Source: a bacterium (GTDB lineage Bacteria; Patescibacteriota; Minisyncoccia; Phycocordibacterales; Zambryskibacteraceae). From it: a DNA stretch of 36,347 nucleotides. Below are positions 552 to 17,813 of this stretch, one piece after another; the first letter of the stretch is position 1, and each line of letters starts with the position of its first letter. The translations under genes and the position numbers were made by a program. Under the pieces are notes generated by a model. It was given only the letters and a program-made list of their open reading frames with translations. It ran no database searches and was not told the DNA's origin. The stretch is from NCBI GenBank assembly GCA_030650605.1, contig JAUSDP010000101.1, forward strand, positions 1-36,347, in the 5' to 3' direction.

Positions 552-2786
552 ATGTCTTCAAAACACAATATTCAGCACACGCATCAGTTTAAGAAGTTTT
601 TTCATACTAATCAAAAAGCTTACTATCAAACGATAAATAAAAAGGGACGGACAATACGTAATTCGGAAAAAATCTATGGGTACTTAGACAAACGCAATAA
701 AGCGAGGTTAATTGAAGCGAATAAAGAAGGACTTGAAATCGCTATGATGATCAATCGCGGTGATGGTAAAGGTCGAAGCTTAGGAAATGTAACTGAAATA
801 GTTGCTGTATTCGCTGACCTCGATGGTGGCACGAAGACTCTTAAAGAACTACTTCTGCTCGACATTAAACCTCATCTAATAGTTGAAACTTCGCCAGGAA
901 ATTTCCATGTGTACTGGCTTGTAAGTGGCTGTGCTATTGAGAGGTTTAAACCAGTTCAGCAAGCAATAGCCAAGGAACTAGGCTCTGATCCTGCTGTTTG
1001 CGATGCGAGCCGAGTTATGCGTATGCCTGGCACATATAATTGGAAGCGCGATAAACCATTTTTAGCAAAAATAGTACATTTGCAAAAGGATGCAGAATCT
1101 ATTCCAATTAATACATTTATCAAAAAAATGGGTTTAGATGTCAGCGTAAAAAGCGATGAGGTATCTGAAGTTGATGAGGTTCATCGGCAACCCAATACTA
1201 AACCGGCAAACAAAAAACCACCGTTAGAAGTTGAGATTTCCCGTGCGCTTAATGGCATCTCAGCTGATGATCGTTGGCTTTGGCTTCAATTCGGAATGGC
1301 AATACATAGTTTTGATCAGACGGAAAGAGGATATCGCTTGTGGACAGATTGGTCTCGTACCTCTTCTAAATTTGATGAAAAGGAGCAGAAAAGGACTTGG
1401 GATGCTTTTAGTGTAAGCGGCGGTATAAATATCGGCACTCTTTTTCATCTTGCGAATAAGGAAAAAAATGGCGATAAAAATGCCTATGACGAAACTTCTA
1501 TCACCCAATTGATGGTAGCAACCTATAAACATATATTGCAATATGAACGGAATAGCCGTACGTGGTTTTACTTTAACGGTGTAGTTTGGAAAGCAGACTC
1601 TCAAGCACCTTTAAGAATGGTTCGGCAATTTATTGAGAACTTGAGTCGTGGCGAGAAAAATTCTGTTCCTGATTCATTAAGGCGCTTTCGTACTGCGTCC
1701 GGTTTTCGATCCATCGTTAGCAATGCTGAACTTTCAGATGATATTTATATTTTGCCAAATAAATTTGATCAAAACCCTAATTTATTGGCGGTAAAAAATG
1801 GCGTAGTTGATCTAGTGAGCGGCGAATTTCGTGAAGCGAAAGCGGATGATTTTTTACGTAGACAAGCCAATGTGGAATTCCAGAAAGAGGCAACATGTCC
1901 CGAATGGGTAAATTTCATAAAAGCAGTGACTAAGGGGGACCTTGAGCTTTGTAAATATATTCGCAGAGCATTGGGCTATACATTGTTTGGTCACGCGAAA
2001 GAACAAGTTTTCTTCTTAATAATCGGATCAGGCGGAAACGGGAAAGGCGTGCTAATGAGGACAGTGCAACAAATGCTCGGAGATTACGCTCAGAATGTCG
2101 CACCAAACCTCTTAACAAGCGCATACAGCGGTAACGCCAATAGTCCGTCGCCAGCACTGGCAACGTTGTATGGAGCGCGTATGGTTATTTGTACCGAGTT
2201 ACCAACAGGGAAGAAAATAGATGACGCATTTGTTAAGCAATATGCGGGTGGTGATAACATCACAGCACGAGCAACTTATGGGGAAATGTTTTCATTCAAG
2301 CCTGAAGGTAAGCTTTGGGCATCTGCCAACGACGTGCCTGATATCTCCGCAACAGACAATGCTATGTGGCGTAGATTAGAGCCGCTGCCATTTGACGCAC
2401 AATTTCAAGGTGATGAACAAGATGAAAATCTTGAAAACAAACTAGCCGATGAATATTCTGGCATCCTGAATTGGATCATCAAAGGAGCGCAGGAATATGC
2501 AAAAAATGGCCTTGGTACCTGCCCAAAAGTAGATGCACTTAAAGACCGAATGCGCAAAGATGCTGACACGATAGCTACTTGGATTTCCGAATGCTGTGCA
2601 AGTGATGCCGACGCCAAGACTCAATCATCAATTGCATATAAGAACTATAGGGACTTCATCAAACTGACAAAATGCAAGCCTTTAAGTCAGGCTCGTTTTA
2701 AATCTGGCTTAGTCGACAAAGGCTTTCATCACAAAAAAACAAGCAGCAGCAATTACTTTACGGGCTTTAGTCTTCAACAACCGTAA
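552..2786 (+). CDS. Phage/plasmid-type primase-helicase (RepB-like primase, PriCT_2, D5/SF3 helicase)
   Basis: A 744-residue replication protein. Residues about 60-170 look like a RepB-type primase domain, with FADLDGG (acidic pair D89, D91), SPGNFHVYW and RVMRMPGTYNWK. Residues about 225-300 match PriCT_2 in style. The C-terminal half is a D5_N/superfamily-3 helicase: Walker A GSGGNGKG (492-499), Walker B with E549 in ARMVICTEL, sensor KLWASANDVP (587-596), and arginine finger in MWRRL (605-609). Such proteins prime and unwind the origin of P4-like satellites and integrative islands. The start is supported by AAGGA seven bases before the ATG. The gene follows an AlpA-type regulator on the same strand and is flanked by TGGAAC dyads that may be its binding sites. 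All key residues are present, so it is probably functional, at about the usual length. Confidence 0.92.
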   Translation: MSSKHNIQHTHQFKKFFHTNQKAYYQTINKKGRTIRNSEKIYGYLDKRNKARLIEANKEGLEIAMMINRGDGKGRSLGNVTEIVAVFADLDGGTKTLKELLLLDIKPHLIVETSPGNFHVYWLVSGCAIERFKPVQQAIAKELGSDPAVCDASRVMRMPGTYNWKRDKPFLAKIVHLQKDAESIPINTFIKKMGLDVSVKSDEVSEVDEVHRQPNTKPANKKPPLEVEISRALNGISADDRWLWLQFGMAIHSFDQTERGYRLWTDWSRTSSKFDEKEQKRTWDAFSVSGGINIGTLFHLANKEKNGDKNAYDETSITQLMVATYKHILQYERNSRTWFYFNGVVWKADSQAPLRMVRQFIENLSRGEKNSVPDSLRRFRTASGFRSIVSNAELSDDIYILPNKFDQNPNLLAVKNGVVDLVSGEFREAKADDFLRRQANVEFQKEATCPEWVNFIKAVTKGDLELCKYIRRALGYTLFGHAKEQVFFLIIGSGGNGKGVLMRTVQQMLGDYAQNVAPNLLTSAYSGNANSPSPALATLYGARMVICTELPTGKKIDDAFVKQYAGGDNITARATYGEMFSFKPEGKLWASANDVPDISATDNAMWRRLEPLPFDAQFQGDEQDENLENKLADEYSGILNWIIKGAQEYAKNGLGTCPKVDALKDRMRKDADTIATWISECCASDADAKTQSSIAYKNYRDFIKLTKCKPLSQARFKSGLVDKGFHHKKTSSSNYFTGFSLQQP

Positions 2787-2808
2787 TTTAAGGATAGTGT
2801 CACAGCCT

Positions 2809-2844
2809 CCATTAGTTCCACTTTGCCGCCAGTGGAACTGATGG
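2809..2844. repeat. 14-bp inverted repeat downstream of primase with TGGAAC core
   Basis: Arms CCATTAGTTCCACT (2809-2822) and AGTGGAACTGATGG (2831-2844) pair at 13 of 14 positions around an 8-base loop. A further TGGAACC follows at 2842-2848. No T-run follows on either strand, so it is not a textbook intrinsic terminator. The shared TGGAAC core with the 427-520 repeat suggests a protein-binding site, perhaps for the primase-helicase; that is inference. Confidence 0.45.
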
Positions 2845-2936
2845 AACCTATAACAAAAGGAGTGTTTCGTTTTTACACTGGAAGTGGCATCCAAATCAAC
2901 AAATGCAATGCCAGCTAAGTTAATTAAATTCTTGAG

Positions 2937-3224
2937 TTATATGCGTTCAATCCGAAACTTAGGGCGATGATCACCCATAAGAACCCTCAAATCTTTGATA
3001 CTAACGGCGCTAACTTCGTGCATGCCAATTAATAACGAAGCACCAATAGGCAAACGACGGTGACGAATTTTGCTGATGACAGGTGGCGCAACTTCCAATA
3101 TTCTTGAGAGTGCTGCGTCATTTTTTATGTGGAGCAGTTTAATAATCGCATCCAAAAGTGTATCTGGGTCATAGTTCACTTCTTCAGTTTCAAGATCCAA
3201 TAAGTTTGACATTGTAGACTTCAT
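2937..3224 (-). CDS. Small helix-turn-helix (Cro-like) protein, function unknown
   Basis: A 95-residue protein on the strand opposite to the primase. Residues about 25-85 have the pattern of a Cro/XRE-like helix-turn-helix: DAALSRILEVAPPVISKIRH (helix 2, turn, helix 3), followed by RRLPIGASLLIGMHEV, which resembles the post-HTH helices of that family. I recognise this as a type of small conserved protein seen in accessory DNA of betaproteobacteria, but cannot name it. It probably binds DNA. Met5 is an alternative start; neither has a strong ribosome binding site. A 27-bp dyad (3316-3342) lies about 92 bases upstream of its start and may be its operator. It ends 150 bases from the primase stop and converges with it. 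Confidence 0.65.
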   Translation of the reverse strand: MKSTMSNLLDLETEEVNYDPDTLLDAIIKLLHIKNDAALSRILEVAPPVISKIRHRRLPIGASLLIGMHEVSAVSIKDLRVLMGDHRPKFRIERI

Positions 3225-3649
3225 TGTTGATCATAATGCCTATATGGTAACTCAGCTGTCATATTTCAATATCAAATGCCTGGTTCTGTCAGGTTATAGT
3301 CGATTTTAACGCCGTCTTACGATAGCCAATAATTATCGCAAGAAAAAATTACCATCGCGTCTTCCCATTCATTGGAATTGAAAATACTTTATCTATTTTC
3401 ACAACAGGAGCGTCATCAAGCAATTGACCTGATCCTTTTCCAATTGAGTGGCATTTACACAGAATTTCTTACAAACTCTTTATATTAGGTCTTTTTGAGT
3501 AATTCGCGGGACAGAATATTGGTGATAACTAAAACTCATTTCAGGACATCCGAAATTGGCTGGGCTATCATCAGTTACCACCTTTGATAAACGGCACTTT
3601 GTCATCTATTACCGCATACACACTAGCGAAAAAGTTAGCTGATACGATT
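3225..3649. other. Intergenic region, 425 bp, holding a 27-bp dyad
   Basis: No convincing gene. It lies between the start of the small HTH gene and the end of the 529-residue gene, so it should hold the promoter of the former and the end of the long minus-strand transcript. The clear structure is the dyad at 3316-3342. A weaker pair, GGTGATAACT near 3521 and AGTTACCACC near 3573, is complementary at 9 of 10 positions across about 43 bases and may be chance. I see no strong intrinsic terminator for the upstream operon. Confidence 0.5.
3316..3342. repeat. 27-bp dyad, copy 1 (CTTACGATA-N9-TATCGCAAG)
   Basis: Left arm CTTACGATA (3316-3324), 9-base AT-rich spacer, right arm TATCGCAAG (3334-3342); the arms are inverted with one mismatch. 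The identical pair of arms with the identical 9-base spacing and orientation occurs at 23227-23253, where a third half-site follows. The spacers differ, so conservation is confined to the arms, as expected for a protein-binding or recombinase site. The two copies bracket the minus-strand defence block. Confidence 0.6.
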
Positions 3650-5239
3650 CTATTTATTTTTTCGCAACGTTATGGTATTTGAAGACTTTTTTACTGTCGC
3701 CGTTAAAATTGGTTTAGTTGTGATTGCCGATTTTTGCAAAAAAGAAAACTCATTCACCTCGTTAAATACCTGCTCGTTTTGCACTCCATTTAACAATACT
3801 ATATTTCCTCGATTTAATATCTGTTTCGATACTAGTCGCTTAGCTGCTTCCAAGTGTCCGGGGAGCGATGAAAAAAATCCAATTGGTACAGTAACTGGAT
3901 GATGCGCTATATGAAAATGGAACAGCGCGCACATAAACTTATCTTCGAACAGAAACAATTCAAAATTCCCTCCCATAATTGAATCAGTAGTTGCGAATAG
4001 TTTTGGAAATATATCTTTATAAGTACCTGCTGCTCTATTTTTATCACCGTTATCTCCTCGCTCAATTTGAAGAAGAGTCCTCACACCGCCAACTTTCAAA
4101 CTCACTTCGCCATCATCTTTCGGCGCAATTATCCTGTTTATGATTTGCAGTAACTCATTGGCGGCAGGCGACCTAGACCATAACCGTGACTGAGGTGCGA
4201 GCCACAATGCTGATTTTGCTTTTTGATGACTTTCTATTGAATCAATCTTCCCTTCTTTCATATCGCTATCGCCTTCGCCATTACTGGTTGGAAGATCTGA
4301 AGTAGTCCACGTTGTAAGCCATTCAACCAAAATATCTCTATTTTTCTTCAAGTGCAAAGCGCCCAACAATGGAATGACTTTACTATTGGAATAGCTATTG
4401 ACTTTTGTTAGGTGAACATCTTGCACATATTTCCGTAGATCAAATTCATCTTTGGCAATATAACCTTTCAGTAATTCATCGTCGAACATCGCTATAAAAT
4501 TCTCAAAGAAATCATTATCACGTTGATCGTGGCTTACCATAGCATCAGAAATTGCTTCAGCCATTTCCAATCGCCCGCCAAAACTCTCATCACTAATTTC
4601 CCTTTGAATACTAGTATGTCCGTCAAAATTCAATTGAAAAATGCAAGGTAATGGTATGCTAAATAACTCACCCGCATCTACGTCGCTGATCTTGTAAATT
4701 TCAGCTCGATCTTTCTTAGAAATTTGACGAAAATTCGTTTGAAACGAACGTTCGGCACATTGAATTGACCTGGAAAGTTTTTCGGTATCTTTTGAAGTCA
4801 GTTCTATCATTGAGCGAATTCTTCGTAATCGTGAAGGGCGTTCGGCAGGACTAAAACTTATAAGATCAAATACGACCGATCCGGTCCATTCTTGGATTCT
4901 AAAAAATCTTGGTAAATCATCTGAGCTATCCTGGAAACGAGCTTTCGAATATGGAGTCAGCTCTAACTGATCTTCATGCCATTGAATCAAGCGTTCATCC
5001 AAAAGCGCCTTAACTACAGCAGCCGTTTCTTTCTCAGAGTATCCAAAATAATTTTGCAATTGAACCGGACTGACTAACCCACACACATGAGTGATCCGCA
5101 AGGCAAATTCGGTGACAACAGGCAATGCTTCCTCGGCGCTGATGGAACACGAAATATCAAAACTTTGTGCGGGTATCGCAAAGGTGATTTCATCAATGGC
5201 CAGAAATGCATTCAGTTGTTGCTCTTCTTTAGTGATCAT
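3650..5239 (-). CDS. Winged-helix protein of unknown function, partner of the NERD-kinase-helicase
   Basis: A 529-residue protein I do not recognise. Residues about 44-102 read as a winged helix: SPVQLQNYFGYSEKETAAVV (helix-turn-helix) followed by ALLDERLIQWHEDQLELTPY (wing). The rest is mixed alpha/beta without an evident catalytic motif, signal peptide or membrane segment, so it is probably cytosolic. Its ATG overlaps the stop of the upstream NERD-kinase-helicase gene by 4 bases (ATGA), which implies translational coupling and a joint function. It may be a DNA sensor, a substrate of the kinase, or an accessory factor for the helicase; these are inferences. It is the last gene of the minus-strand defence block. 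Confidence 0.8.
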   Translation of the reverse strand: MITKEEQQLNAFLAIDEITFAIPAQSFDISCSISAEEALPVVTEFALRITHVCGLVSPVQLQNYFGYSEKETAAVVKALLDERLIQWHEDQLELTPYSKARFQDSSDDLPRFFRIQEWTGSVVFDLISFSPAERPSRLRRIRSMIELTSKDTEKLSRSIQCAERSFQTNFRQISKKDRAEIYKISDVDAGELFSIPLPCIFQLNFDGHTSIQREISDESFGGRLEMAEAISDAMVSHDQRDNDFFENFIAMFDDELLKGYIAKDEFDLRKYVQDVHLTKVNSYSNSKVIPLLGALHLKKNRDILVEWLTTWTTSDLPTSNGEGDSDMKEGKIDSIESHQKAKSALWLAPQSRLWSRSPAANELLQIINRIIAPKDDGEVSLKVGGVRTLLQIERGDNGDKNRAAGTYKDIFPKLFATTDSIMGGNFELFLFEDKFMCALFHFHIAHHPVTVPIGFFSSLPGHLEAAKRLVSKQILNRGNIVLLNGVQNEQVFNEVNEFSFLQKSAITTKPILTATVKKSSNTITLRKNK

Positions 5240-8200
5240 GCAACTCTCCTAACAACACCAGACGCATTCACAATATCGAAATTCAAACCATCTCTGTTCA
5301 ACTCAATATGCGCTAAAATCGTTCCCATTGGTGAGTCCCGATTTTTCTCACGCCACATCTTTGCCGCACCAACAATAATCAACCGATCCATTGCACGCGA
5401 AATCGCCACGTTTGCTCGTTCGGGGCTACTTACAAAACCTTGATCGAATTGAGGATTATTTCGCGTAGCTGATACGATAATAATTCTATTTTCCTTTCCT
5501 TGGTAACTATCAACTGTATCAATTTTAATCAAGTGACGAAACCCAGTGGCCCAATCCTGCTCGCTCATTAGTTTTAGAAGTAACCGTTTCTGATCTGCAT
5601 ACATACAAATCACACCGATTGGTTTTTCATCCTCGGTACTGTCCTCGACAAGCGCCCTGATAAACGATGTAGTCGCACATATAGAGCGTAGTAAATCCAG
5701 AATTTCACGCGCTTCGAATTGATTATCTATATGTATGCGATCACGCTTTTTCTCGAAAGATTCACGGCCAGCATCGGATGTATCAACCCAAGTAACGATT
5801 GACTTCGCTCGTTCAGGCAATTCGGAAAACCAAGATTTTGAGTTGCCACGTCCTGGCTCCAATGGAATAGGATAAAAGCATTTCGATACTAGCTCGCCAA
5901 TTGGCGGGGACATGCGGTATTGTGTTCGCAGTGTTGCCCCAACTTGATGGCCGTAGCTTGATTCAAATGCGCGTTCAAAATCACTTCGAATTAGGACAGA
6001 TCGATCATCCCAGGCCAAATCAGAAACAATTTTATGAACTAATGGTTGCGTATAAAGTGGGGGTAATTGACGATGATCTCCTACAAGAAGAACTCTTCGT
6101 CCAGACTGCACTGCAACAGCTAACTCGCCGGGCGTTGCACGTGCTGCCTCATCAACGATAACCCAATCATAACGATTACTAGAAACGCCGAATTGAGAGC
6201 GCCCCAAACCTACACAAGTTCCACATACAAGCGAACGGGTTTTTGCCAAAAATTCTTCAAAATTCCCGCGCAAAACGCCTAATCGATCAATCCATTCTTG
6301 CGCCATTGCTATAACTTTGTCGAGCCGAGCAACTGCATCAAACGATCGAACTGAGTGATCTTTCATTATTCGGTCACGGAGTCGCTGTACCACGTCAGCT
6401 GGTGACATCCGTTCCGAGAATTCAAATTTCTCGCTCGCCAATCTGTGAAACCGTTCAGTGCGCTGTCCTAATTTTGCAGCCAAAGCTTTGTATTCCTTTG
6501 ATGTCAAATCAAAATCAATCTGTTTAATACTAAGACGGTCAATTTCACGAAACATACGACCTAGATAAAAATCAAGATCAAACCAATCATCTACAAATTC
6601 GTTCGACAAGCCTAAATTACGGCTCAGCGACCCAACTCGTTCACGCATCTCGGAGCGGAACATATCTCGATATGATCGAAGGATCGAAGATGAGTGATAA
6701 GGCCGAAGCTGTTCCGATACCATTCCTTCCGCACCAAAACGGACAACATCCAATGGAAGTTCCGTATGCCGACAAAGCTCAATGACTTTCTCAGCCGCAT
6801 TATTCACTGCTTCATGTGATTGACTCGCAAGTAAAATACTCTTGGCACCTTGCGACAATGCATAATGAATAAACGAAGCAATAAATGATGTTTTTCCTGT
6901 ACCAGGAGGCCCCTGCAAGAGACTCACTGGGCCATTAGACCAAAGACGTTGGAATGCAAGACGCTGTTGCGAATTCAAGGAAAATGTCTTTTTCCCGTCT
7001 TCATCAAAACGACTATATACATCGAGTGCTTCATCAGTAGGCGGCAATTCAAGTTCCGTAGGTGCCGGACAACGAAGTGGGTCAAAATAATCAATTAAAT
7101 CAGGAATTACTGATTCACGATTAAGTATCCGATTCACGGCGAGATAGCGTCTTCGAAAAGACGAAAGATCTTGTTGGCTGCGTAGTTTAATCTTGTCGCC
7201 GAGTCCCAATGCAATCCGAATAATGGGATTATCAAGTACAAGGATTGCGCTAGTCGTCTCTCTGATATCAACTTCACCAACGCGAACAAGTTCGCCATTA
7301 ATTTCTTGAAGAGCTTCAACTTTAGCATCCGAATCATAATCAAGAGCACTACCTTCATTAGTATAAGGAATTCTAATCTTTCCCCGCCTACCAAATTCAC
7401 GATCAACTACGCCCACAATTTCCACTTCGGGTAATGTGGCCTCTTCCGCATCCAAAATTGATTTCCAAATGGACTCGGTCGCAGGAGCTGGTCGTGTCAC
7501 AGCAGGGTCGAAGGGCGGCTCATCCGGCTCTTGCTCCTCTTCTAAAATTAATATTTTCATTCGAACTAGCGAGATTGCATCTCGAATCGCTTGAATATCG
7601 CGCAATGCTTCAATGAGTCCATCAACGTTATCCGCACCAGCGGGCGTCAATTCAATGTCTGAATAAAAACTCGCTACCGATTTATTCGCGGCGTGGACAA
7701 ACTGGCTATGCTGAAGTTCTTGAATACCAAGACGCACAAACTCCAACTCATCTGGTTTTAAATTAATGAGCAATCGTTTTCGTACGCCTGAAACAGAAAT
7801 AACAATGCAAGGTTCTCTTCGGTTACCTTTTGTGTCTTCCGCATAGACTCCAATATGAAATGCGCCATTGTCGGGCATCAATTTAGATTTTGAAGAAAAC
7901 CTCGCCACCTGCACCATAATCGAATTTATTGATGCATTTTTCGGCGGCGTGAGAACTACTACTATCGCATCTTCGATGCGATCAAGTGCATATACTTTCA
8001 ATTCGTAATTCATACATAAGTGTATTTCTCTACGAATTTCAATAGGATCATACACACCCCAATCTACTACTCTATCAAGGATCTGACTACACATCTTGGC
8101 AACAGCAAAACAGTCACGTTGATCAATTGGCGTCGACTCTTGATTTACTGGTACATATGCGGGGCTATGGGGAGCACTCCCATCTCCTGGCAAAATATCA

Positions 8201-10116
8201 ATTGCGTCAATAAATCGAATGTCTTTATTTTCAAACATGACATTTTCAGGGTGCAGGTCGCCATGTTGAAAACCCAATCCATGTAAGTGTGTAGTCGCTT
8301 TTATCAGTTTCTGACAATATGTAAGTGCATCTATCGCTGATACCTCGCCCCCAGTAATGCTGGAAAGAGAAATGCCATCAATCCATCGTTGCACAAGAAA
8401 TGCACCAGCATCCGAAAGTCCAAAGTCAACAATCTCAGGAAGCGAGCTACAGCGCTGACTTTTTATTAATCGCGATTTCTCCAAAAAATTTTGAAGTTCA
8501 TGCGTCTCTTCTGGTCGCTTTGGATCTGGTTTTTTTCCATACCAGACTTTTACTGATATTGCCATTCCGCCAATGTTAGATTTATATACGTGGCTATGAC
8601 CTTGTTTAATATTCTCTTGGATCGGGTAGACAACCATCGGAATAACATCAGTTCTAAATGCTTCAAATGACCTCATGTCTAGTATGAGAACCGGATGAGG
8701 TAAAAATTGAATCCCGTTAAATGAATTCAACATTTCTCGGGCGTTCGAAAAACGGTCAGAAGGAATTAACTCTAGCGACCTCGACAACCACACGTTCAAG
8801 TTTCCTTCATAAGGATCGGTCGTAGGTATATTCCAAACATACAAACCACTTTCTTGTTTTGGCGGCGTCAAATACAGAAGGTGATGGGCAACAATTCCAA
8901 GTAAATAAACATCCCTGCGGAATGGATCACTTGCCTCACCAGCACCAATCTCAGAGTCTTCTGGGAGAATGGCTTTACCGGCTCGGAGTCTGTCACGCAG
9001 CCCTCCAACGGTTCCAGATTCTGGAAAATACGCGGTAATGAATCCAGACAAAGAAACTTTTGTAGGTTGTTCCAGCCAAATACTATGATCACTTACATCT
9101 CTGTGAGCAACGCCGATATCATGTAAATCTGCAACGTGTGAGATTAATACTTTTACTAATGCCGTGCGTTCTTGTATAGACAATTCTGGGCCAAAACGAT
9201 TCACAAAATCGCTCAAGCGAACTTGCCTTGACGGAAGTCGATACAACTCGCAAAAATCTGCATCAATATCATCGCGAGTTGGGTGAGACAAAGGCTGCAA
9301 CACCACGTTATCTAACTCTTCATTCTGCTCGTGAATAAATCCCAGAACCTGATGCTCTCTTAGCGCAATTCGCGCTCTCTCATCCACTGTATCCGCTTGT
9401 CCAGCAAGCGCGGCAAAATCCCATCGTCGTAACAATGCCTCATGACGTTGATCATCTTTCTTTATAGACTTATATTCCTTATAGAGCCCATCTGGATGTG
9501 AAAAAGTAGTATCACCAATAATTTGGAAATTATTGAATGAGAATCCAGCTGGTTTAAAGTCTTTTCCACGAAAAAACTGTGTAAAAATCTGTATTTGCTG
9601 GTTTGGCTTTCCACCTTTGGTATCACCAAATATCTGACGATAAGTTGTCGGTTTCGCTATCCGCAAAAATTGATCCAACGATAAAATATAAGCCTTTTCA
9701 TCTGCTGAAATTTCGGAGTAATCAGCCGATCCACACATAACAATGCGATAGTCGATCCATACAGACTTGGCAGGTGATGGTAAACGAGCTTGTATTTTTG
9801 ATGATAAAATTTTCCACTTATCCGCCATGACAAGAACTGGAGACCTGCCCATGTCATTACCATCCTTTAACCAATGATCCTGCATAGGCTCTATTTTTCC
9901 TCGCCACTTTTTAAGTTCGATGATCAAAAGCCTGTCATGAGTTAACAGCACGAGATCAATTTCACGATCTCGGTACGTTGTATCCATCATCATAAATCCA
10001 GCATATCCCTGCCAAGACTGACTAAATTCAGTAGCGTTAAAAGTAAGGCGCATTTTTTCAATGGCCTCTTTCTCGGATGGATGGATGCCGTCGCTACTGA
10101 TGTAATCTATCTTCAT
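5236..10116 (-). CDS. NERD nuclease-like + pseudokinase + kinase + SF1 (Dna2/UvrD-like) helicase fusion
   Basis: A 1626-residue multidomain protein, probably cytosolic and anti-phage. Domains in order: NERD nuclease-related domain (about 1-130) with D54 in REIDLVL and E67/K69 in IIELKKW; a first kinase-like lobe (about 210-465) with AHRDVSDHS but serine in place of the metal-binding Asn and LSGF in place of DFG, so likely a pseudokinase; a second kinase (about 505-685) with ISVKVW, HGDLHPENV and RFIDAID, which keeps catalytic residues; a linker; then a superfamily-1B helicase (about 1045-1600) with GPPGTGKT (1069-1076), VDEAARA (1321-1327), GDHRQLPP (1346-1353), QYRM (1399-1402), SYQGKE (1537-1542) and RANVAISRA. 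A NERD domain plus a kinase recalls PglW of BREX type 2, but no other BREX gene is present. The gene overlaps the 529-residue gene by 4 bases. Confidence 0.88.
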   Translation of the reverse strand: MKIDYISSDGIHPSEKEAIEKMRLTFNATEFSQSWQGYAGFMMMDTTYRDREIDLVLLTHDRLLIIELKKWRGKIEPMQDHWLKDGNDMGRSPVLVMADKWKILSSKIQARLPSPAKSVWIDYRIVMCGSADYSEISADEKAYILSLDQFLRIAKPTTYRQIFGDTKGGKPNQQIQIFTQFFRGKDFKPAGFSFNNFQIIGDTTFSHPDGLYKEYKSIKKDDQRHEALLRRWDFAALAGQADTVDERARIALREHQVLGFIHEQNEELDNVVLQPLSHPTRDDIDADFCELYRLPSRQVRLSDFVNRFGPELSIQERTALVKVLISHVADLHDIGVAHRDVSDHSIWLEQPTKVSLSGFITAYFPESGTVGGLRDRLRAGKAILPEDSEIGAGEASDPFRRDVYLLGIVAHHLLYLTPPKQESGLYVWNIPTTDPYEGNLNVWLSRSLELIPSDRFSNAREMLNSFNGIQFLPHPVLILDMRSFEAFRTDVIPMVVYPIQENIKQGHSHVYKSNIGGMAISVKVWYGKKPDPKRPEETHELQNFLEKSRLIKSQRCSSLPEIVDFGLSDAGAFLVQRWIDGISLSSITGGEVSAIDALTYCQKLIKATTHLHGLGFQHGDLHPENVMFENKDIRFIDAIDILPGDGSAPHSPAYVPVNQESTPIDQRDCFAVAKMCSQILDRVVDWGVYDPIEIRREIHLCMNYELKVYALDRIEDAIVVVLTPPKNASINSIMVQVARFSSKSKLMPDNGAFHIGVYAEDTKGNRREPCIVISVSGVRKRLLINLKPDELEFVRLGIQELQHSQFVHAANKSVASFYSDIELTPAGADNVDGLIEALRDIQAIRDAISLVRMKILILEEEQEPDEPPFDPAVTRPAPATESIWKSILDAEEATLPEVEIVGVVDREFGRRGKIRIPYTNEGSALDYDSDAKVEALQEINGELVRVGEVDIRETTSAILVLDNPIIRIALGLGDKIKLRSQQDLSSFRRRYLAVNRILNRESVIPDLIDYFDPLRCPAPTELELPPTDEALDVYSRFDEDGKKTFSLNSQQRLAFQRLWSNGPVSLLQGPPGTGKTSFIASFIHYALSQGAKSILLASQSHEAVNNAAEKVIELCRHTELPLDVVRFGAEGMVSEQLRPYHSSSILRSYRDMFRSEMRERVGSLSRNLGLSNEFVDDWFDLDFYLGRMFREIDRLSIKQIDFDLTSKEYKALAAKLGQRTERFHRLASEKFEFSERMSPADVVQRLRDRIMKDHSVRSFDAVARLDKVIAMAQEWIDRLGVLRGNFEEFLAKTRSLVCGTCVGLGRSQFGVSSNRYDWVIVDEAARATPGELAVAVQSGRRVLLVGDHRQLPPLYTQPLVHKIVSDLAWDDRSVLIRSDFERAFESSYGHQVGATLRTQYRMSPPIGELVSKCFYPIPLEPGRGNSKSWFSELPERAKSIVTWVDTSDAGRESFEKKRDRIHIDNQFEAREILDLLRSICATTSFIRALVEDSTEDEKPIGVICMYADQKRLLLKLMSEQDWATGFRHLIKIDTVDSYQGKENRIIIVSATRNNPQFDQGFVSSPERANVAISRAMDRLIIVGAAKMWREKNRDSPMGTILAHIELNRDGLNFDIVNASGVVRRVA

Positions 10117-10279
10117 TTCTTTTCGTCTTTTGATGATGCAACAAGTTGAGATGTTCTTCTAGGCCGTTTAGTTTTTCGACCTCAGTATTTACCAAATTTC
10201 AGTGCGTTTCCATTTGTAGAGCGTGTTCAAGAACAAGTTCTACTTAAAATACTGACAAAATTCCTGTGAGATAAAACAG

Positions 10280-10504
10280 TTACCACTTTGTATCTAGTGC
10301 AATTGCTGTCGCTTTTACGTCAACATCTGAAGACGAATGCTGTATAAAAAACTCCTTCGCCTTCACAGGCTTAATAACGATCTCGCCATTATCGCGTAGC
10401 GTAATGTAGAGATAGTCACCAGAAGTGAGTCCTGTACGTTCAGCGATATATTGAGGAAGCCGAACGCCTAAACTGTTACCCCATTTTGATAGTTTGCTTG
10501 GCAT
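10280..10504 (-). CDS. AbrB/MazE-like antitoxin-type DNA-binding protein (no toxin next to it)
   Basis: A 74-residue protein with a swapped-hairpin AbrB fold signature: KLSKWGNSLGVRLPQYIAE, then GDYLYITLRDNGEIVIKPVK. This is typical of MazE/SpoVT/AbrB antitoxins, which bind their own promoter as dimers through the N-terminal part and block a MazF or PIN toxin through the tail. I chose the ATG at 10504 rather than an upstream in-frame start because AAAGGA lies ten bases before it and the MPSKLSKWGNS beginning is canonical. No MazF, PIN or other toxin-sized frame adjoins it: the gaps on both sides (163 and 149 bases) are empty. It may be an orphan antitoxin, a solitary regulator of the defence block, or the remnant of a pair. 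Confidence 0.85.
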   Translation of the reverse strand: MPSKLSKWGNSLGVRLPQYIAERTGLTSGDYLYITLRDNGEIVIKPVKAKEFFIQHSSSDVDVKATAIALDTKW

Positions 10505-10653
10505 GATAGATAGATCCTTTCGGTTATATACAATGGCTATCAAATTGCAATAGGGCTTGAATATTGGCGCTACCTATTCATTTTCCGTCGATTTATCACC
10601 CAATTCAAATATCATCATTTTTTCGACATCACTGAATCAAAGTAATGGAGACC

Positions 10654-13416
10654 TCATAGCCCAAAACGATCACAAAGCGCCTTCAAGGTTATATTTGAAA
10701 GAACTGCATCGTGAGGAATAAGGATATATCGCCACGGCTTACCGCCGTGTATCTGTGAATACTCACTAGCGTTCTTGCACCAGGTAACGGCAGCATCTGC
10801 TTTTGCCTTTACGTCTGCAACGTTCATATCCTTGGCGGCCTTAGTCTCAATAATGAAATTATGGTCTGCCGTTGCTGCAACAAAGTCAGGTAAATATTCA
10901 GGTTGATTTGCACCAGATCGGTAGTAGATAGTGAATTGCCCCGCTACTGGCCGAAACCAAAGACGAGCATCACGCTCTAAGATCGTTGCCAAGACGCGCT
11001 CGGTATCTGAATGAAATTTCTGCACTGGGTATGCGCACTTGGCGAAGCCACCGTACACATATTGAGCAATCTTACTTTTCTCCAGTGGTGCTTGATGCAA
11101 TGGTAGTAGCGCGCCTTCGGCAGTAAATGCGCAGGGCTTCAGAGGGGTAAATCCTTGGCTGACCACGACCGCAGATTCAGACATATCCTCAAAATAATGT
11201 TGCGCCATTTGAAGGTGAATATTCTCTGAGATATTTTTCCCATAATTACTCAGAATATTGTGCAGTTCATCATCCGTCTTCAAATAGCTTTTGAAGTGAT
11301 CAACAGCTTGCCCAGATAATTCATAGATGAGGTCGGCATGTTCGTCATAGGAGACATCATCGTAATTGATCAATTCTCGCACTAGATAATCTTCCAGTCT
11401 TTCTTCCAGCACAGTCGAAGATTCGCCGTAGAAAATCTGCTTGCCAGTTTTCAAACCTTGGCCGACTAAGGCCATATCTTGCGGCTGAAAATTCATCTTA
11501 GCTACATCAAGCTGAAACCCCTTATAACCACTCTTCACAGGGCCTTTTGGCACCACTGTGATGCGGGGAATATCTATCGTGTGTGCTAGGAATACATCGA
11601 CCGTCCGTTTGACTATCTCGCTGATTGGTGAGGGTTCTGATCCTGCCTCGACGTTGATAAAGTCGACCTGTTTTGGCAACAGTCGCTCTTGTACGCGCTG
11701 GGCAATTTGTTGCTGTATCAATGGTTGATTTAATGCGGCACTGTTTGGCACTAGAGACAAACCATCGTTTTTCTCACGACTAATCTCAGCAATCACATCT
11801 ACCGTATATTGGGCAATCTTTTGCTCTGCTGCTGTACGCATCGCCACAATAGGCGCGGATTCACCATATTGACTTGTGCTTGGTTGCCCGTTGCTTGAGC
11901 CACCCGACACTTGTGGCGTACCAGCCGTGTAGGTTCCAAGTATCACATTCGCCATAGGCTGCACCGCAATACTCGTCAACGTGCTGCTGCCCGTGGGGTC
12001 GCTTGATAGCTCTAGTCTTTGCATGCGAATAGGTGAATCACCCCGCCCAGCTTCGTCGATGACTTCTTGAAATTTATCGTGGGCGATGATGTTTAAACGA
12101 TCAACCACATCAACGCCAGTCTTACGACCATAAGGCAACCGTAAGCCGCGCCCGATAGATTGTTCAATCAAGGTACGCGCATTGGCTGCACGTAACGGAA
12201 CTATCGTATAGAGGTTAGTGACATCCCAGCCTTCTTTGAGCATGTTGACGTGGATAACGATTTCAGTTGGTTCGTCATAGCTTTCTACCGCTAGCAAACT
12301 TCTGATCATTTCCTCTTCTTCAGCACCAGAACGGCTGCTATCAACTTGAATGACCTTGCCTTTATAGCGTCCGCTAAAAAAACTATCCGATTCAATATTG
12401 GCCTTTAATGCGCCAGCATGCGTGGTATCGCGGGCGATTACCAAGATAAAAGGCTTGACCAATTTTTCGCCCGTTTGCTGCGCATACGTCAGCAAGTGGA
12501 CTTTAGTCTCCTCATGTACACGCACGCCATCTTGTAGCTTGATAATTTCCAATGCAGCAGCGCTGTGCGCCGCAGGGTCAAAGTTCTGTTGCGTGACCAC
12601 AGCAGGTTCTTTGACAAAGCCATCCTCGATTGCTCGCGCCAGTGGGTAGTCCATCACCACATTCTTAAATGGCACAGGCGCTTTAGCACCTTCAGTGAAT
12701 GGTGTCGCAGTTAGTTCAAGGCCAAGCAAAGGACGTAATTCATTCAACGCACGGATACCAGCGCCAGCACGGTAACGATGCGACTCATCCATAATCAGTA
12801 CCAAATCATCTAAACTTGCCAGGTATTCAAAGTAACTCTGTCCCAAATATTCAGTTAAGCGTTTGATCTTTGGCGATTTTCCACCGCGTACCTCTGAGTT
12901 AATTTTGGAGATGTTAAAAATATTAATTTCAATCGGAGAATCGGTAGCCTGTGCAACCAAATCGCGGTAATTGTCGTAAGTATCACCCGTGATCACCTGT
13001 GGCAAGTTCGATGCAAACTCAGCTATGCCCTTGAACACATACTTAGGTGAATTCGGCGAAAAATCTCGTATCAATTTGTCGTAAATCGTCAAGTTAGGTG
13101 CAAGTACAAAGAAATGTTTGAAGCCATAAGCTGCATGCAAATAACTAATGAATGCCCCCATTAGCCGAGTCTTACCAACACCTGTTGCCAATGCAAAGCA
13201 CAATGACGGGAACTCACGTTCAAAATCAGTCAATGTTGGAAACTGCCCTTGCAGCGACTCCTGCATGGATTTCAATTCTTCAGGTGAACGTGCTTTTGCA
13301 TCCCTTAAGGCAGGTATTTCACTCACAGCCCAATGCAAACGACGCAAACTTTCTGCTTGTGGTTCGCGCAAAGAAAGGCGGCCAGTAACCGACCGGACAA
13401 CTTGATCAAGACTCAT
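10654..13416 (-). CDS. res: Type III restriction enzyme, Res subunit (SF2 helicase-nuclease)
   Basis: A 920-residue restriction subunit. It has an SF2 translocase with Walker A ATGVGKT (77-83), DESH (210-213), TATPF (236-240) and a motif VI-like QSIGRGLRLPYG near 415-427. It ends in a PD-(D/E)xK nuclease at about 841-859: YLPDFVAAT with D844 and IIETK with E857 and K859. Res acts only in complex with the Mod methyltransferase, using ATP to track along DNA and cutting when two unmodified sites are engaged. The matching mod gene lies upstream in the same direction, but a rhuM gene and a 111-base gap with a strong hairpin intervene. Length and motifs are complete, so it is probably active. The start has only a weak ribosome binding site, which hints that its expression is kept low or controlled separately. 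Confidence 0.93.
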   Translation of the reverse strand: MSLDQVVRSVTGRLSLREPQAESLRRLHWAVSEIPALRDAKARSPEELKSMQESLQGQFPTLTDFEREFPSLCFALATGVGKTRLMGAFISYLHAAYGFKHFFVLAPNLTIYDKLIRDFSPNSPKYVFKGIAEFASNLPQVITGDTYDNYRDLVAQATDSPIEINIFNISKINSEVRGGKSPKIKRLTEYLGQSYFEYLASLDDLVLIMDESHRYRAGAGIRALNELRPLLGLELTATPFTEGAKAPVPFKNVVMDYPLARAIEDGFVKEPAVVTQQNFDPAAHSAAALEIIKLQDGVRVHEETKVHLLTYAQQTGEKLVKPFILVIARDTTHAGALKANIESDSFFSGRYKGKVIQVDSSRSGAEEEEMIRSLLAVESYDEPTEIVIHVNMLKEGWDVTNLYTIVPLRAANARTLIEQSIGRGLRLPYGRKTGVDVVDRLNIIAHDKFQEVIDEAGRGDSPIRMQRLELSSDPTGSSTLTSIAVQPMANVILGTYTAGTPQVSGGSSNGQPSTSQYGESAPIVAMRTAAEQKIAQYTVDVIAEISREKNDGLSLVPNSAALNQPLIQQQIAQRVQERLLPKQVDFINVEAGSEPSPISEIVKRTVDVFLAHTIDIPRITVVPKGPVKSGYKGFQLDVAKMNFQPQDMALVGQGLKTGKQIFYGESSTVLEERLEDYLVRELINYDDVSYDEHADLIYELSGQAVDHFKSYLKTDDELHNILSNYGKNISENIHLQMAQHYFEDMSESAVVVSQGFTPLKPCAFTAEGALLPLHQAPLEKSKIAQYVYGGFAKCAYPVQKFHSDTERVLATILERDARLWFRPVAGQFTIYYRSGANQPEYLPDFVAATADHNFIIETKAAKDMNVADVKAKADAAVTWCKNASEYSQIHGGKPWRYILIPHDAVLSNITLKALCDRFGL

Positions 13417-13453
13417 CGTTTTTGTTCCTAGTTTTTTGCATGCTAGTTATTAG

Positions 13454-13482
13454 TAATTCGTCAGACAGTATCTGACGAATTA
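13454..13482. promoter_or_regulatory. Perfect 12-bp inverted repeat between rhuM and res
   Basis: Arms TAATTCGTCAGA (13454-13465) and TCTGACGAATTA (13471-13482) are perfectly complementary around the 5-base loop CAGTA. It lies 38 bases upstream of the res start in the otherwise geneless 111-base gap after rhuM. On the minus strand no T-run follows, so it is not a canonical terminator. It could be an operator for an internal res promoter, or an intercistronic RNA hairpin that lowers or protects the res message. Confidence 0.6.
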
Positions 13483-13527
13483 AGGCATCAACTCCGCCTA
13501 CATCGTCACAAACAAGATTCACCCTAT

Positions 13528-14610
13528 TCATTGGCTGTCTTCTTTCTTTGTTTTCTTCTTATCCGTTGCCAGCTTGTTTGGCGTGCGATTTTTCGCCAAC
13601 ACCTTCACAGGTATTTGGATAGCCGCATCAAAATCACGCTCGACTAGATTTGGCGTGGCAAGCTGACGGGTACGGTACTGCTCAAATTCGGCCTCCGCCT
13701 TAGTCTGTGCGAGTTCGGCTGCAACCTTGCCAGCATGGGTCAAAACCTCACGCTCAGTCATCCGCAAGAAGTCATTTAGCCTCGTCATCCAATCCGCCAT
13801 CGTCATCACCTTGCGTGCCTGTGCTTGCAATTCGGCTATTTCGATGTAGGCATTGACGATACGGTTCAGTGTTCCAAGCTCTTCTTCATTCAAATAATTT
13901 TTCGCAACACTCACATCTGCTTTGCGAATTGCCCCGCCTTTATATGCACTCGCCCATGTCGTTAACCCCATATTGGGAGAATCAGCATCGGCACGCAGCG
14001 AAATTAATTCGGCAGCAGTATGGCCGTGCGCAGCCCAATGCATTTTATTTTGCACGGTTGCAAAGAATCGCTGGGCTGAATCTGTGGAAGCATCGTAATC
14101 AATGCTGGTTGCATAAATATCGAGTACTTTTTTCCAGAAGAGTTTTTCAGAAGTGCGAATATCGCGAATGCGCGCCAACAACTCTTCAAAGTAAGCGTCA
14201 TCCTTGCCGCTCTTAAAACGTTCATCATCTAACACAAAGCCTTTAACTAGGTAAGACTTCAGCGTGTCTGTAGCCCATCGCCGGAATTGCGCGCCTCGGT
14301 GAGAACGCACTCGATAGCCAATCGCCAACACCATGTCAAGATTATAATGTTTTAGGCTACGGTTTACTTGCCTGCCGCTCTCGTGGCGAACTTGTAAGTA
14401 CGGCTTACAAGTTGCCTCTTCTAACAATTCACCATCAGCGTAGATAGCGCGGATGTGCTGCGTCATATTCTGCGGCGTACTTTGGTAAAGATCAGACAAT
14501 TGTTGCTGTGTCAGCCACAAGCCATTATCTGAAAATCGCACCTGAATACGTGTTGTGGCATCTTCCGTCTGGTACAGCAGAAATTCTCCGATTGTTTGCG
14601 GATCACTCAT
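13528..14610 (-). CDS. rhuM: RhuM-family protein
   Basis: A 360-residue member of the RhuM (virulence RhuM) family. The N-terminal section has GLWLTQQQLSDLYQSTPQNM and HYNLDMVLAIGYRVRSHRG, then QFRRWATDTLKSYLVKGF, which is the family core. RhuM was named from a Salmonella pathogenicity island gene; its biochemical activity is not established. Family members are frequently embedded in restriction-modification loci and near Fic/Doc-type genes, as here. The ATG overlaps the mod stop by 4 bases, so it is translationally coupled to mod. It is followed by 111 bases without a gene before res. The C-terminal tail is lysine-rich (KKKTKKED). It may be an accessory factor of the type III enzyme or an independent cargo gene; the context cannot decide. 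Confidence 0.88.
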   Translation of the reverse strand: MSDPQTIGEFLLYQTEDATTRIQVRFSDNGLWLTQQQLSDLYQSTPQNMTQHIRAIYADGELLEEATCKPYLQVRHESGRQVNRSLKHYNLDMVLAIGYRVRSHRGAQFRRWATDTLKSYLVKGFVLDDERFKSGKDDAYFEELLARIRDIRTSEKLFWKKVLDIYATSIDYDASTDSAQRFFATVQNKMHWAAHGHTAAELISLRADADSPNMGLTTWASAYKGGAIRKADVSVAKNYLNEEELGTLNRIVNAYIEIAELQAQARKVMTMADWMTRLNDFLRMTEREVLTHAGKVAAELAQTKAEAEFEQYRTRQLATPNLVERDFDAAIQIPVKVLAKNRTPNKLATDKKKTKKEDSQ

Positions 14611-16280
14611 GCATCACCCCCGTCAAATAAGCCACCTTGTCCAACAGCATCTACAGACTTCTTACGTGCTGATTTTGGTGCGGCAACTTCTACAGGCATC
14701 TCTGGTGCTTGCGGTAAATTTTCTACATTCAAGCTGTAATCGTCATGGCTCCACTCGCAACGTTGCAAGACCATTTTTGGAATCTTCTTGACCGTCAAAT
14801 TCGGATAACGGTTGGCATCGCCACGGAAGGCAGAACAGCAAACTAACAAACTGCGTTGCTCGCCCACTTCATCACTCAATGCCTGCAATTGCTCAGGTGT
14901 CAGGCTTTGCGTGGTCACATAAATAAAGTCGGTTTCAGTACTGGTGCCGTGCTGCCAATAATGCGCATCGCTTGGGAGATAGGTGAATCCTTCCAGCTTA
15001 CAGATAGCCGCCGCCAGCATCTCGGCGTTGTATTCCTTGTTGATGACCCATTGACCCCAGCGATCTTGCTGCAACAGGCTAGGAGCCAGTTTATAGTAGC
15101 GAAAACCACCACCGCCCTGCCAATCAACAGTTTGACTGACGCCGCCTTGATCTTCGCCATTGATGACTTTTTGCAGACGCGGAATAATATGCGTATGGCA
15201 GTGTTCACCTAATTCGATCATGATCCAGCGGCGTCCCATTTTGTGGGCGACTGCACCAGTGGTGCCTGAACCGGCGAAGGAGTCAAGAATCAAGTCGCCA
15301 GGATTGGAGGCGATGTGAATGATACGATGTAACAGGCGCTCTGGCTTTGGCGTATCAAACACATTATTTTTACCGAACAACACATGCATTTCTTTTTTCG
15401 CTTCATCGGTGTGACCTGCTTCTTCGTGTGGCCACCATGTATTTGGAACTATGGCGGCTGCATCTTTCAAATACGATTTAAATGACGGGGCACCATCGCC
15501 AGATTTACCAAAGTACGCAAGGCCAGCTGTGGCTATTTCCAACCATTGATCTTCCGTTCTTGACCAACATCGCCCTTCGGGAGGCATACGAATTTTTCCC
15601 GTTGGTGTTGTAATTGGATAGGTGAGGTTCGGTCTCAAATTCGGAGCATCCCAAGGGATCGCGCGCCACGGGCCATTCGCATCATTGTCTGTATTTTTGT
15701 ATTGTCCCGCTTGTTCATCAGTACGCGATAAGCGGTTTCTAATTTTTTTCCACTTTTCGGGACTCGATGCATATACCAGAATTGAGTTGTGCGACAACGA
15801 AAGACTGGCATCGTTTGAGCGAGAGTATCGATTTTGCCAAACTACATTTGCTACAAAACTGCCTCGCCCAAAAACCTCATCACACAACACTTTTAAGTAA
15901 TGACATTCATTGTCATCAATAGTTATCCAGAGTGAACCATCTTCAGAGAGCAGACGTCGAATAATTTCCAGACGATCCCGTATTAGAGACAGCCAAATTG
16001 AATGTTCAACACCATCGTCATAATGCGTAAATGCGCTGCCCGTATTGTATGGAGGATCGATAAATACGCACTTCACTTTACCTGTAAATTCCTGCTCCAA
16101 AGCCTTCAACGCCAGCAGATTATCGCCAAAGATAAGCTGATTATCGAAGATGTCGTCCTCCGACACACGATGCTTGGCGTGATGACTCTTTTCTGGATCA
16201 CCCAGCAATATACGTGGCTCCAGCTTCGGACGTACATCTTTGCCTATCCAAGTCAGTTCTAGTTTTTGCTTTTTGCTCAT
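14607..16280 (-). CDS. mod: Type III DNA adenine methyltransferase, Mod subunit
   Basis: A 557-residue N6-adenine methyltransferase. The catalytic DPPY motif (FIDPPYNTG, D75-Y78) comes first and the AdoMet-binding motif (DSFAGSGTTG, 333-342) later, the beta-class order seen in type III Mod proteins. The region between them (about 150-300) should hold target recognition. Mod recognises an asymmetric site and methylates one strand; with Res it forms the restriction complex. The C-terminus (about 365-557) is a variable extension. The ATG overlaps the kwaB stop by 4 bases and its stop overlaps the rhuM start by 4 bases, so it sits in the middle of a coupled kwaA-kwaB-mod-rhuM message. I see no simple-sequence tract of the kind that causes phase variation in other mod genes. 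Confidence 0.93.
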   Translation of the reverse strand: MSKKQKLELTWIGKDVRPKLEPRILLGDPEKSHHAKHRVSEDDIFDNQLIFGDNLLALKALEQEFTGKVKCVFIDPPYNTGSAFTHYDDGVEHSIWLSLIRDRLEIIRRLLSEDGSLWITIDDNECHYLKVLCDEVFGRGSFVANVVWQNRYSRSNDASLSLSHNSILVYASSPEKWKKIRNRLSRTDEQAGQYKNTDNDANGPWRAIPWDAPNLRPNLTYPITTPTGKIRMPPEGRCWSRTEDQWLEIATAGLAYFGKSGDGAPSFKSYLKDAAAIVPNTWWPHEEAGHTDEAKKEMHVLFGKNNVFDTPKPERLLHRIIHIASNPGDLILDSFAGSGTTGAVAHKMGRRWIMIELGEHCHTHIIPRLQKVINGEDQGGVSQTVDWQGGGGFRYYKLAPSLLQQDRWGQWVINKEYNAEMLAAAICKLEGFTYLPSDAHYWQHGTSTETDFIYVTTQSLTPEQLQALSDEVGEQRSLLVCCSAFRGDANRYPNLTVKKIPKMVLQRCEWSHDDYSLNVENLPQAPEMPVEVAAPKSARKKSVDAVGQGGLFDGGDA

Positions 16281-17230
16281 GCCGCAATACTCTTCCCGCC
16301 CACGAGAGCTTTCGCCGCAGAGTCAAATAATTCACTGTTGATTGGCGAACGCAATCTATCATTGTTCAAAAGTTTCAGAAGCAATTCAACAGTGTCTTCC
16401 TCGACCACAATCTTGCCATTTTCAATCTTTAGCTCCCATCCTTCATCACTACTGACTTGCATCATCTGTTGAAGATATTCTGGATTTTTGTAGTAAGCAG
16501 ATTTACGTATAGATGCAAGCTTACGAAGATGGTGCAGGTTTTCACCGACGAAGGTGCGTATGAGTTCCACATTATCTATAAAACTCAAGCTCTCAAATTC
16601 AATCAGGACTTCTGCGCCATTTGTTTTCATACCCTCCCTGAAATTCATGGAGCTTTCAAATTCGCGCTTATTTGCGATTAAAATTTGTCCTTCGTGAACA
16701 AAGAAGTCAAAGCGTGGATCAATCAGAAATACCTCTTTATCTTCAGCATCGATTAGCTTGTGATTGCGAAAGAAAATCGCTTTTTGTGTTATTGCTTTTT
16801 TAGGCTGCGTTAATGCATTAATTTTCCTCCATGCATATAATCGTTCATTATTATTTTCAAATAGAACCACGTATGCCCATGAGTTAAGCAACTGGTCGTA
16901 TTCAGTAGCAAGCGGGTTATCAAATCCCTCATTCACAGCCTTTTCGACTTTTGGGAAATCGGTCGCATCAGCAGAAATAGTAAACAACGTATCGTCGCCA
17001 TCCGCGTTATTAAAGTCATACTCAGTTAGATGGAAATCTTTACTCTGTAACTGCTGCTGCAAATACCCTTTGAATCGTTTCAGCAACTTCGCATCTATGT
17101 CCACTCGCAACACTGAATAATTCGCATCCTTTTGAGCGATTTTTCTTTTTACTAGCCAGAAGCTTGCCGTCCACTGGTTAAAGTCAAGTGCTTTAATTTT
17201 TTTGAGCTGCTTAATATTTTTATTCGTCAT
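16277..17230 (-). CDS. kwaB: Kiwa anti-phage protein KwaB (DUF4868)
   Basis: A 317-residue soluble protein that I recognise as KwaB, the DUF4868 partner of the Kiwa defence system. The support is the length (close to the roughly 315 residues of the E. coli protein), the pattern LLNSWAYVVLFENNNERLYAW and KINALTQPKK typical of DUF4868, and the adjacent four-helix membrane protein of KwaA type. KwaB acts with KwaA at the membrane in defence against phage. I start it at the ATG at 17230, not the preceding TTG, because AAGGA lies eight bases before the ATG. It overlaps kwaA by 11 bases and mod by 4. That physical coupling to a type III methyltransferase is unusual and argues for joint expression. 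Confidence 0.88.
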   Translation of the reverse strand: MTNKNIKQLKKIKALDFNQWTASFWLVKRKIAQKDANYSVLRVDIDAKLLKRFKGYLQQQLQSKDFHLTEYDFNNADGDDTLFTISADATDFPKVEKAVNEGFDNPLATEYDQLLNSWAYVVLFENNNERLYAWRKINALTQPKKAITQKAIFFRNHKLIDAEDKEVFLIDPRFDFFVHEGQILIANKREFESSMNFREGMKTNGAEVLIEFESLSFIDNVELIRTFVGENLHHLRKLASIRKSAYYKNPEYLQQMMQVSSDEGWELKIENGKIVVEEDTVELLLKLLNNDRLRSPINSELFDSAAKALVGGKSIAA

Positions 17231-17813
17231 CAAATTTTTCCTTAGGTTTCAATTCGTCCGGTGTCGCCGCAATGTACAAATAATGCGAAAGCCTTTCAAC
17301 TCGATATGAGGTGCCGATAGCGAGTGGTGTACGCGTGACCACCATAGCCTGAATTTCTTTGTCTCCGCGCTTAAATGTACAGTCAATCAACATGTATCCA
17401 GCCAGTGCCAATATAGGATTAACGAATACAGTTTGAGTGCGATAAGCCATGACAAAAAGAATCGAAAGGAAAATCATCAGGCTAATAATTGTTTGCCAAT
17501 CGCCAAGATCCACACGCAAAAAAGACAGCATGTAAGGGATCGTATAACCAAACATGTCTCCCGACTTATTTGATGCCTTAGTAACCGTAACCGGAAGTCC
17601 ACTTTTAATCTCTTTAACAGAGCGAAGGATCGCAATACTGCTAAACACTGCCACGACGAGTAGGATGCCACTTAACCATGGATTACGTGGTAGCCAAGCA
17701 AGATGCGTGGGATCGTAATCCTTGACGATTAAAATAATAAGCAACGGTGAGTACGCACTGAAAAATAGAAGCAACGATGCCCATGGCCGCAACCTCAACG
17801 AAGGATCATTCAT
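17220..17813 (-). CDS. kwaA: Kiwa anti-phage membrane protein KwaA
   Basis: A 197-residue integral membrane protein with four predicted helices at about residues 12-31, 44-63, 108-127 and 130-149, and a soluble C-terminal tail (about 150-197). Size and topology match KwaA, the membrane component of the Kiwa system, and the next gene is a clear KwaB. KwaA is thought to sense phage activity at the membrane and recruit KwaB. The start is supported by AAGGA six to seven bases before the ATG. About 115 bases separate it from the DUF4411 gene upstream, enough for its own promoter, although I could not identify a convincing one. It is probably the first gene of the kwaA-kwaB-mod-rhuM unit. Confidence 0.87.
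   Translation of the reverse strand: MNDPSLRLRPWASLLLFFSAYSPLLIILIVKDYDPTHLAWLPRNPWLSGILLVVAVFSSIAILRSVKEIKSGLPVTVTKASNKSGDMFGYTIPYMLSFLRVDLGDWQTIISLMIFLSILFVMAYRTQTVFVNPILALAGYMLIDCTFKRGDKEIQAMVVTRTPLAIGTSYRVERLSHYLYIAATPDELKPKEKFDDE

Follow-up and report, generated by a model that had tools for sequence, protein, structure and literature searches.

Mokosh type I, reportedly described by Millman et al. in 2022 and known to us through the papers that cite that work, is an anti-phage system encoded by mkoA and mkoB. It is named in three papers (PMC10952713, PMC11672841, PMC11291487), one of which lists NERD among its domains (PMC10952713). Mokosh type II (MkoC) is encoded by a single gene with a COG1112/Upf1-type helicase and a C-terminal phospholipase D (PLD) domain, and no NERD or kinase domains have been described for it. 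A NERD-pseudokinase-kinase module stands at the N terminus of PglW of bacteriophage exclusion (BREX) type 2, and also of MAD6 and some DndF proteins; one paper reports this order in PglW and DndF and proposes that NERD acts as an abortive effector (PMC12839542). PglW continues with C-terminal winged helix-turn-helix modules and an inactive STAND domain and has BrxC, PglX, and PglZ as partners. Hachiman (HamAB) is a two-gene nuclease-helicase complex (PMC12278908). Here, we report a gene pair that is almost certainly Mokosh type I, located in a 36,347-nucleotide window that is the whole of contig JAUSDP010000101.1 (C66) of assembly GCA_030650605.1 (G000), and we propose NERD as the likelier nuclease of its branch.

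Identity of the gene pair

Two open reading frames, of 1626 and 529 residues, overlap by 4 bases as the original prediction had claimed (Table 1). The longer product, MkoA, matched PADLOC model PDLC03921 at 1680.9 bits (residues 1-1619 on profile positions 1-1601 of 1607), a full-length match far above chance, and the shorter, MkoB, matched PDLC03923 at 377.5 bits (residues 9-474 on profile positions 5-437 of 454). MkoA combines a COG1112-type superfamily 1B (SF1B) helicase with a Ser/Thr kinase domain, the system contains NERD (PF08378), and MkoB is encoded in the adjacent gene, as indicated by the PDLC03923 match, the ATGA overlap, and 17 relatives. Judged from these sequence matches, there is very little doubt that the pair is Mokosh type I, with which it shares both profile matches, gene order, coupling, and NERD (PMC10952713). 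The prediction of a two-gene defense cassette was thus borne out, and its suggestion of something new was not: PADLOC and the literature (PMC10952713, PMC11672841) already name the system, and an entry in a defense catalog was a finding that the prediction itself had listed as counting against it. The pair is an ordinary, already cataloged system, so a new defense system was ruled out, and a false candidate is struck from the list of new systems.

The likeness to PglW that had been suggested holds at the N terminus (NERD and tandem kinases) and fails beyond it, where the C-terminal half of PglW is missing. PglW models on MkoA end at residue 422 or ~630 and score 67.9 against a cutoff of 990; MkoA ends instead in an Upf1-like helicase and has MkoB as its sole partner. 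No BREX core partner (BrxC, PglX, PglZ, BrxD, or BrxHI) was found among 20 window proteins scanned against PADLOC, as had been predicted, and the sole BrxH-like match in the window was a DrmD-like helicase that scores far better as DrmD. BREX type 2 was therefore rejected, for lack of both the partners and the PglW C-terminal half. Mokosh type II was rejected as well: its MkoC model (PDLC03924) covers only the helicase part of MkoA, where its best stretch lies, at 99.8 bits compared with 1680.9 bits for the MkoA model, and two genes are present here. Hachiman serves as a working analogy and not as a claim of homology; helicase and nuclease are divided differently between its proteins.

Domains and conserved residues of MkoA

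The predicted arrangement of NERD, two kinase lobes, and an SF1B helicase in one chain was supported by Pfam, PglW and MAD6 models, and solved kinases. The first kinase lobe was matched by the PglW model (residues 12-422, E = 4e-19) and the MAD6 model (residues 32-468, E = 1.6e-30) and was also recovered through solved kinases. AAA_11/AAA_12 (Pfam) fell on residues 1047-1585 (E ~ 1e-37), and the closest solved relatives of the helicase were NAM7/UPF1 (E = 1.9e-49). The structure model of residues 1-1045 was too poor for use (mean predicted local distance difference test [pLDDT], 42.8).

Residue conservation was counted over 15 aligned MkoA sequences. NERD residues E15, D54, and K69 were present in all 15, and residue 67 was E or D throughout. 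In the first kinase lobe, D340 was kept in 15/15 and the DFG aspartate was replaced by serine (S357), also in 15/15. The second lobe retained K523, H618, D620, N625, and D637 without exception, as did the helicase K1075, T1076, D1322, E1323, Q1350, R1401, and R1574. Judged by these residues, lobe 1 is a pseudokinase, whereas NERD, kinase lobe 2, and the helicase appear competent for catalysis. The uniform retention of the one set of residues and loss of the other therefore points to selection on the division into active and inactive parts.

MkoB and the missing HKD motif

The original prediction described the second protein as a winged-helix protein that could not be placed; the winged helix stood (residues 33-115, low-confidence model), and the protein is now placed as MkoB by PADLOC. 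No Pfam family was found on its 529 residues, and a search of solved structures with an MkoB profile gave no match. Overall confidence of the structure model was low (mean pLDDT, 49.6); nonetheless, the winged helix superposed on MarR-family proteins. The VIA superposition list held winged-helix proteins at residues 33-115 only and is uninformative on the C-terminal domain because one domain filled it.

Two reviews give the type I nuclease as a PLD protein from the second gene (PMC11672841, PMC10952713). Accordingly, MkoB might itself be the nuclease, through a divergent PLD domain that relies on residues other than HKD, with the MkoA helicase delivering substrate and NERD and the kinases in regulatory roles; besides the reviews, this has in its favor the strong conservation of H441 and E427 and a second PADLOC MkoB model whose C-terminal half matches PLD enzymes. 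The HKD motif (H-x-K-x4-D) that the reviews' nuclease implies is, however, absent by regular-expression search from the C-terminal domain in 17/17 MkoB proteins (this one and 16 relatives), and the H-x-K...D strings found in the set lie outside that domain, each in a single sequence. Pfam PLD gave no match to MkoB at E values up to 5, and profile-profile comparison (hhalign) of MkoB with 30 HKD segments gave probabilities of <1%.

Weak Foldseek matches of the MkoB model were to the TrmB sugar-binding domain, FAM83 (BJ-TSA-9), NucT, and phospholipase D (E = 0.016 to 0.06), and the C-terminal region (residues ~285-480) may lie behind them. These proteins have the PLD fold in common, which lends the idea of an MkoB nuclease some support, but neither the TrmB sugar-binding domain nor FAM83, two of the closest folds, is a nuclease. 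An HKD/PLD nuclease in MkoB was not supported by the regular expression, Pfam, or hhalign, with the weak Foldseek resemblance remaining; a PLD origin of the domain is a suggestion only. Overall, we consider a nuclease in MkoB unlikely. The absence of the motif is solid at the level of sequence, and because all 17 members are alike, it is a trait of the PDLC03923 branch of MkoB and not of this locus alone. The label of PLD nuclease thus does not fit this branch as far as the motif is concerned, and because MkoB lacks the PLD catalytic motif, NERD is the likelier nuclease.

The second MkoB model, PDLC03922 (610 positions), has its N-terminal part in common with the PDLC03923 branch, and its C-terminal half matches HKD/PLD enzymes. 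At one locus (L097), a 581-residue protein of the PDLC03922 type is paired with a 1260-residue MkoA in which, by eye and without a profile, a NERD signature is not apparent at the N terminus. Because of these two observations, we tentatively suggest, as a possibility that is less likely to be right than wrong, that type I comprises two branches that have swapped their weapon. One would pair a PLD-bearing MkoB with an MkoA lacking NERD; in the present branch, MkoB would retain only a PLD/TrmB-like domain that has lost catalysis and serves as a nucleic-acid adaptor, and the nuclease would now be NERD, controlled by a pseudokinase-kinase switch. Separately, two loci (L094, positions 3152-12117, and L093) carry an operon of a separate kinase (510 residues), an MkoA-like helicase (1116 residues), a 706-residue protein sharing the N-terminal part of MkoB, and a PDC-M26A-like protein (655 residues), which is a split Mokosh-like arrangement.

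Proposed mechanism

We give a probability of about 60% to the Mokosh type I identity combined with the whole of the following mechanism. MkoA and MkoB would be coproduced and form a complex. Abnormal phage nucleic acid would be engaged by the MkoB winged helix and the MkoA Upf1-like helicase, the helicase acting as sensor and motor and MkoB as nucleic-acid adaptor. Translocation would then free an autoinhibited pseudokinase-kinase pair, and (auto)phosphorylation by kinase 2 would be the switch that licenses the N-terminal NERD nuclease. As the effector, NERD would cut nucleic acid (RNA or DNA) and thereby arrest either the phage or the cell that it has infected. MkoA would in this respect follow the same scheme as PglW. 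The gating by the kinase suggested in the original prediction would also have a precedent there: PglW needs its kinase lysine both to autophosphorylate and to confer phage resistance, and it seems to be toxic to Escherichia coli (PMC4365076).

Several points weigh against this mechanism. The reviews cited above place the nuclease in the second gene; NERD activity of PglW was still uncharacterized in PMC4365076; no biochemical test of Mokosh type I proteins was found in the literature searched; and the structure models of MkoB and of MkoA residues 1-1045 are of such low confidence that they allow no check of complex or fold.

The kinase could also be the effector. Switched on by helicase sensing, kinase 2 would phosphorylate proteins of the host or the phage, or else MkoB, whose winged helix would then change transcription, so that growth halts, and NERD would merely bind nucleic acid. 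The invariant catalytic residues of kinase 2 (15/15), the MarR-like winged helix of MkoB, and the autophosphorylation of PglW (PMC4365076) are consistent with this account, but the catalytic residues of NERD are equally invariant and would be unneeded in a mere binding domain. We regard a kinase effector as improbable, slightly more so than a nuclease in MkoB, and retain NERD as the proposed effector. The conserved residues (NERD E67/K69, kinase K523/D620, S357, helicase K1075, and MkoB H441/E427) provide a set with which to ask which part kills.

Distribution

Full-length MkoA relatives (54 to 69% identity) were found in Paraburkholderia, Pseudomonas, Enterobacter, and an acidobacterial metagenome-assembled genome, each followed by MkoB, and an Acidovorax plasmid carries a relative of 66% identity whose downstream gene aligns with MkoB. 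More distant plasmid relatives (~28 to 36%) were found in E. coli, P. aeruginosa, P. mandelii, Vibrio, Moraxella, Acinetobacter, Rhizobium, Pseudorhizobium, Pantoea, and Polaromonas, and in these an MkoB-sized gene that can be aligned with MkoB lies directly downstream. The co-occurrence check proposed with the original prediction came out in its favor: MkoB directly follows MkoA in 17/17 examined relatives in which the 3' end of mkoA is present. In 16 of them, the pair is intact apart from a single split of mkoA in L012 and L109; the remaining one, L016, is degenerate, having lost the central part of mkoA and carrying a disrupted mkoB. Truncated mkoA remnants with no mkoB stand at L014 and L017, and L015 stops at a contig edge. 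The identical 4-base overlap is present in nine relatives (L010, L011, L012, L018, L020, L022, L023, L107, and L111).

In the plasmid collection, 62 records held at least 80% of MkoA in one place and 45 held that much of MkoB. No MkoB relatives were found in viral contigs; among 369 sampled genomes of the class, the only one was in the genome on which the sample was centered; and among 192 genomes of the window's phylum, only weak matches of winged-helix size were found outside the window's own genome. The plasmid location of many relatives could point to plasmid or island maintenance, or gene regulation, in place of defense; we think this very improbable, as against it stand membership of a named defense family and defense-gene neighbors here and elsewhere. 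On plasmid 1 of Polaromonas sp. JS666 (L021, positions 2122-8536), mkoA-mkoB lies between pglX and pglZ within a BREX type 1 locus. On a Pantoea piersonii plasmid (L109, positions 4001-8953), the NERD part is a separate annotated gene before the kinase-helicase gene, by natural split or frameshift.

Surroundings and origin of the contig

The window is a defense island, and the expected island setting was found here, with Kiwa and a type III restriction-modification (R-M) system as neighbors. KwaA, KwaB, Mod, and a RhuM-like gene (within 10654-17813, minus strand) are chained by overlaps of 4 to 14 bases, and Res lies 111 bases beyond; the series is a Kiwa-type III R-M-RhuM composite operon. 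An overlapping DUF4411/HTH-M78 pair looks like a toxin-antitoxin pair. No other defense island system associated with restriction-modification (DISARM) genes turned up in window scans near the DrmD-like helicase. No direct repeats of at least 22 bases (possible att sites) were found in the window, Rfam gave no match, and promoter and terminator scans were not above shuffled sequence.

Table 1. Positions of the Mokosh type I pair, its domains, and neighboring features in the window
Feature	Position	Strand	Details
mkoA	5236-10116	-	1626 residues; NERD, pseudokinase, kinase, Upf1-like SF1B helicase; PADLOC, Pfam, 15-sequence alignment
NERD (PD-(D/E)XK-like) nuclease domain	9727-10083	-	Residues ~12-130; E15, D54, E67, K69; PF08378, E = 1.2e-8 at 31-127
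Pseudokinase lobe	8707-9519	-	Residues ~200-470; HRD 338-340 kept, S357 replaces DFG Asp; PglW/MAD6 models
Kinase lobe 2	8047-8604	-	Residues ~505-690; K523, H618-G-D620, N625, D637; PF00069 (Pkinase), E = 2.1e-7 at 537-637
SF1B Upf1/NAM7-like helicase	5350-6978	-	Residues 1047-1589; GPPGTGKT 1069-1076, DEAA 1322-1325
mkoA stop/mkoB start overlap	5236-5239	-	ATGA, 4 bases (context gcATGAtcact); translational coupling
mkoB	3650-5239	-	529 residues; PADLOC; downstream of mkoA in relatives
MkoB winged helix-turn-helix	4895-5143	-	Residues ~33-115; MarR-family matches, Z ~11, root-mean-square deviation ~2 Å over ~70 residues
MkoB C-terminal domain	3800-4387	-	Residues ~285-480; no HKD; conserved E427, H441, P452, G454; weak PLD/TrmB-like fold
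P4-type primase	552-2786	+	
Res (type III R-M)	10654-13416	-	
RhuM-like	13528-14610	-	
Type III Mod	14607-16280	-	
KwaB (Kiwa)	16277-17233	-	
KwaA (Kiwa)	17220-17813	-	
HTH-M78 peptidase and DUF4411 pair	17929-19583		Genes overlap
DrmD-like SNF2 helicase	19792-22707		691 bits; cutoff 950
NOV_C protein	23563-24600		After DrmD-like helicase
Tyrosine integrase	31206-32237		

The assembly is 1.14 Mb, compared with 0.4 to 0.6 Mb in congeners. The tetranucleotide profile of the window correlated with that of C84 (r = 0.90) and some small contigs (r = 0.77 to 0.83); r was 0.37 to 0.39 with contigs C10, C40, and C75 and 0.48 to 0.50 with four congeners. The best matches found were proteobacterial, and no real MkoB was present in other genomes among the 192 of the phylum. 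The contig is probably a proteobacterial mobile element misbinned into a reduced-genome assembly. C84 encodes ParB and a UmuC-DUF4113 polymerase and is plasmid-like. It carries (L042, positions 3790-10172) a 1626-residue helicase with an MTES_1575 restriction endonuclease domain, overlapping an unplaced gene of 512 residues; this pair was ruled out as a Mokosh paralog, the first protein being a PDC-S37-like helicase-endonuclease and its partner unrelated to MkoB. Composition and size suggest that C84, too, is a misbinned proteobacterial element.

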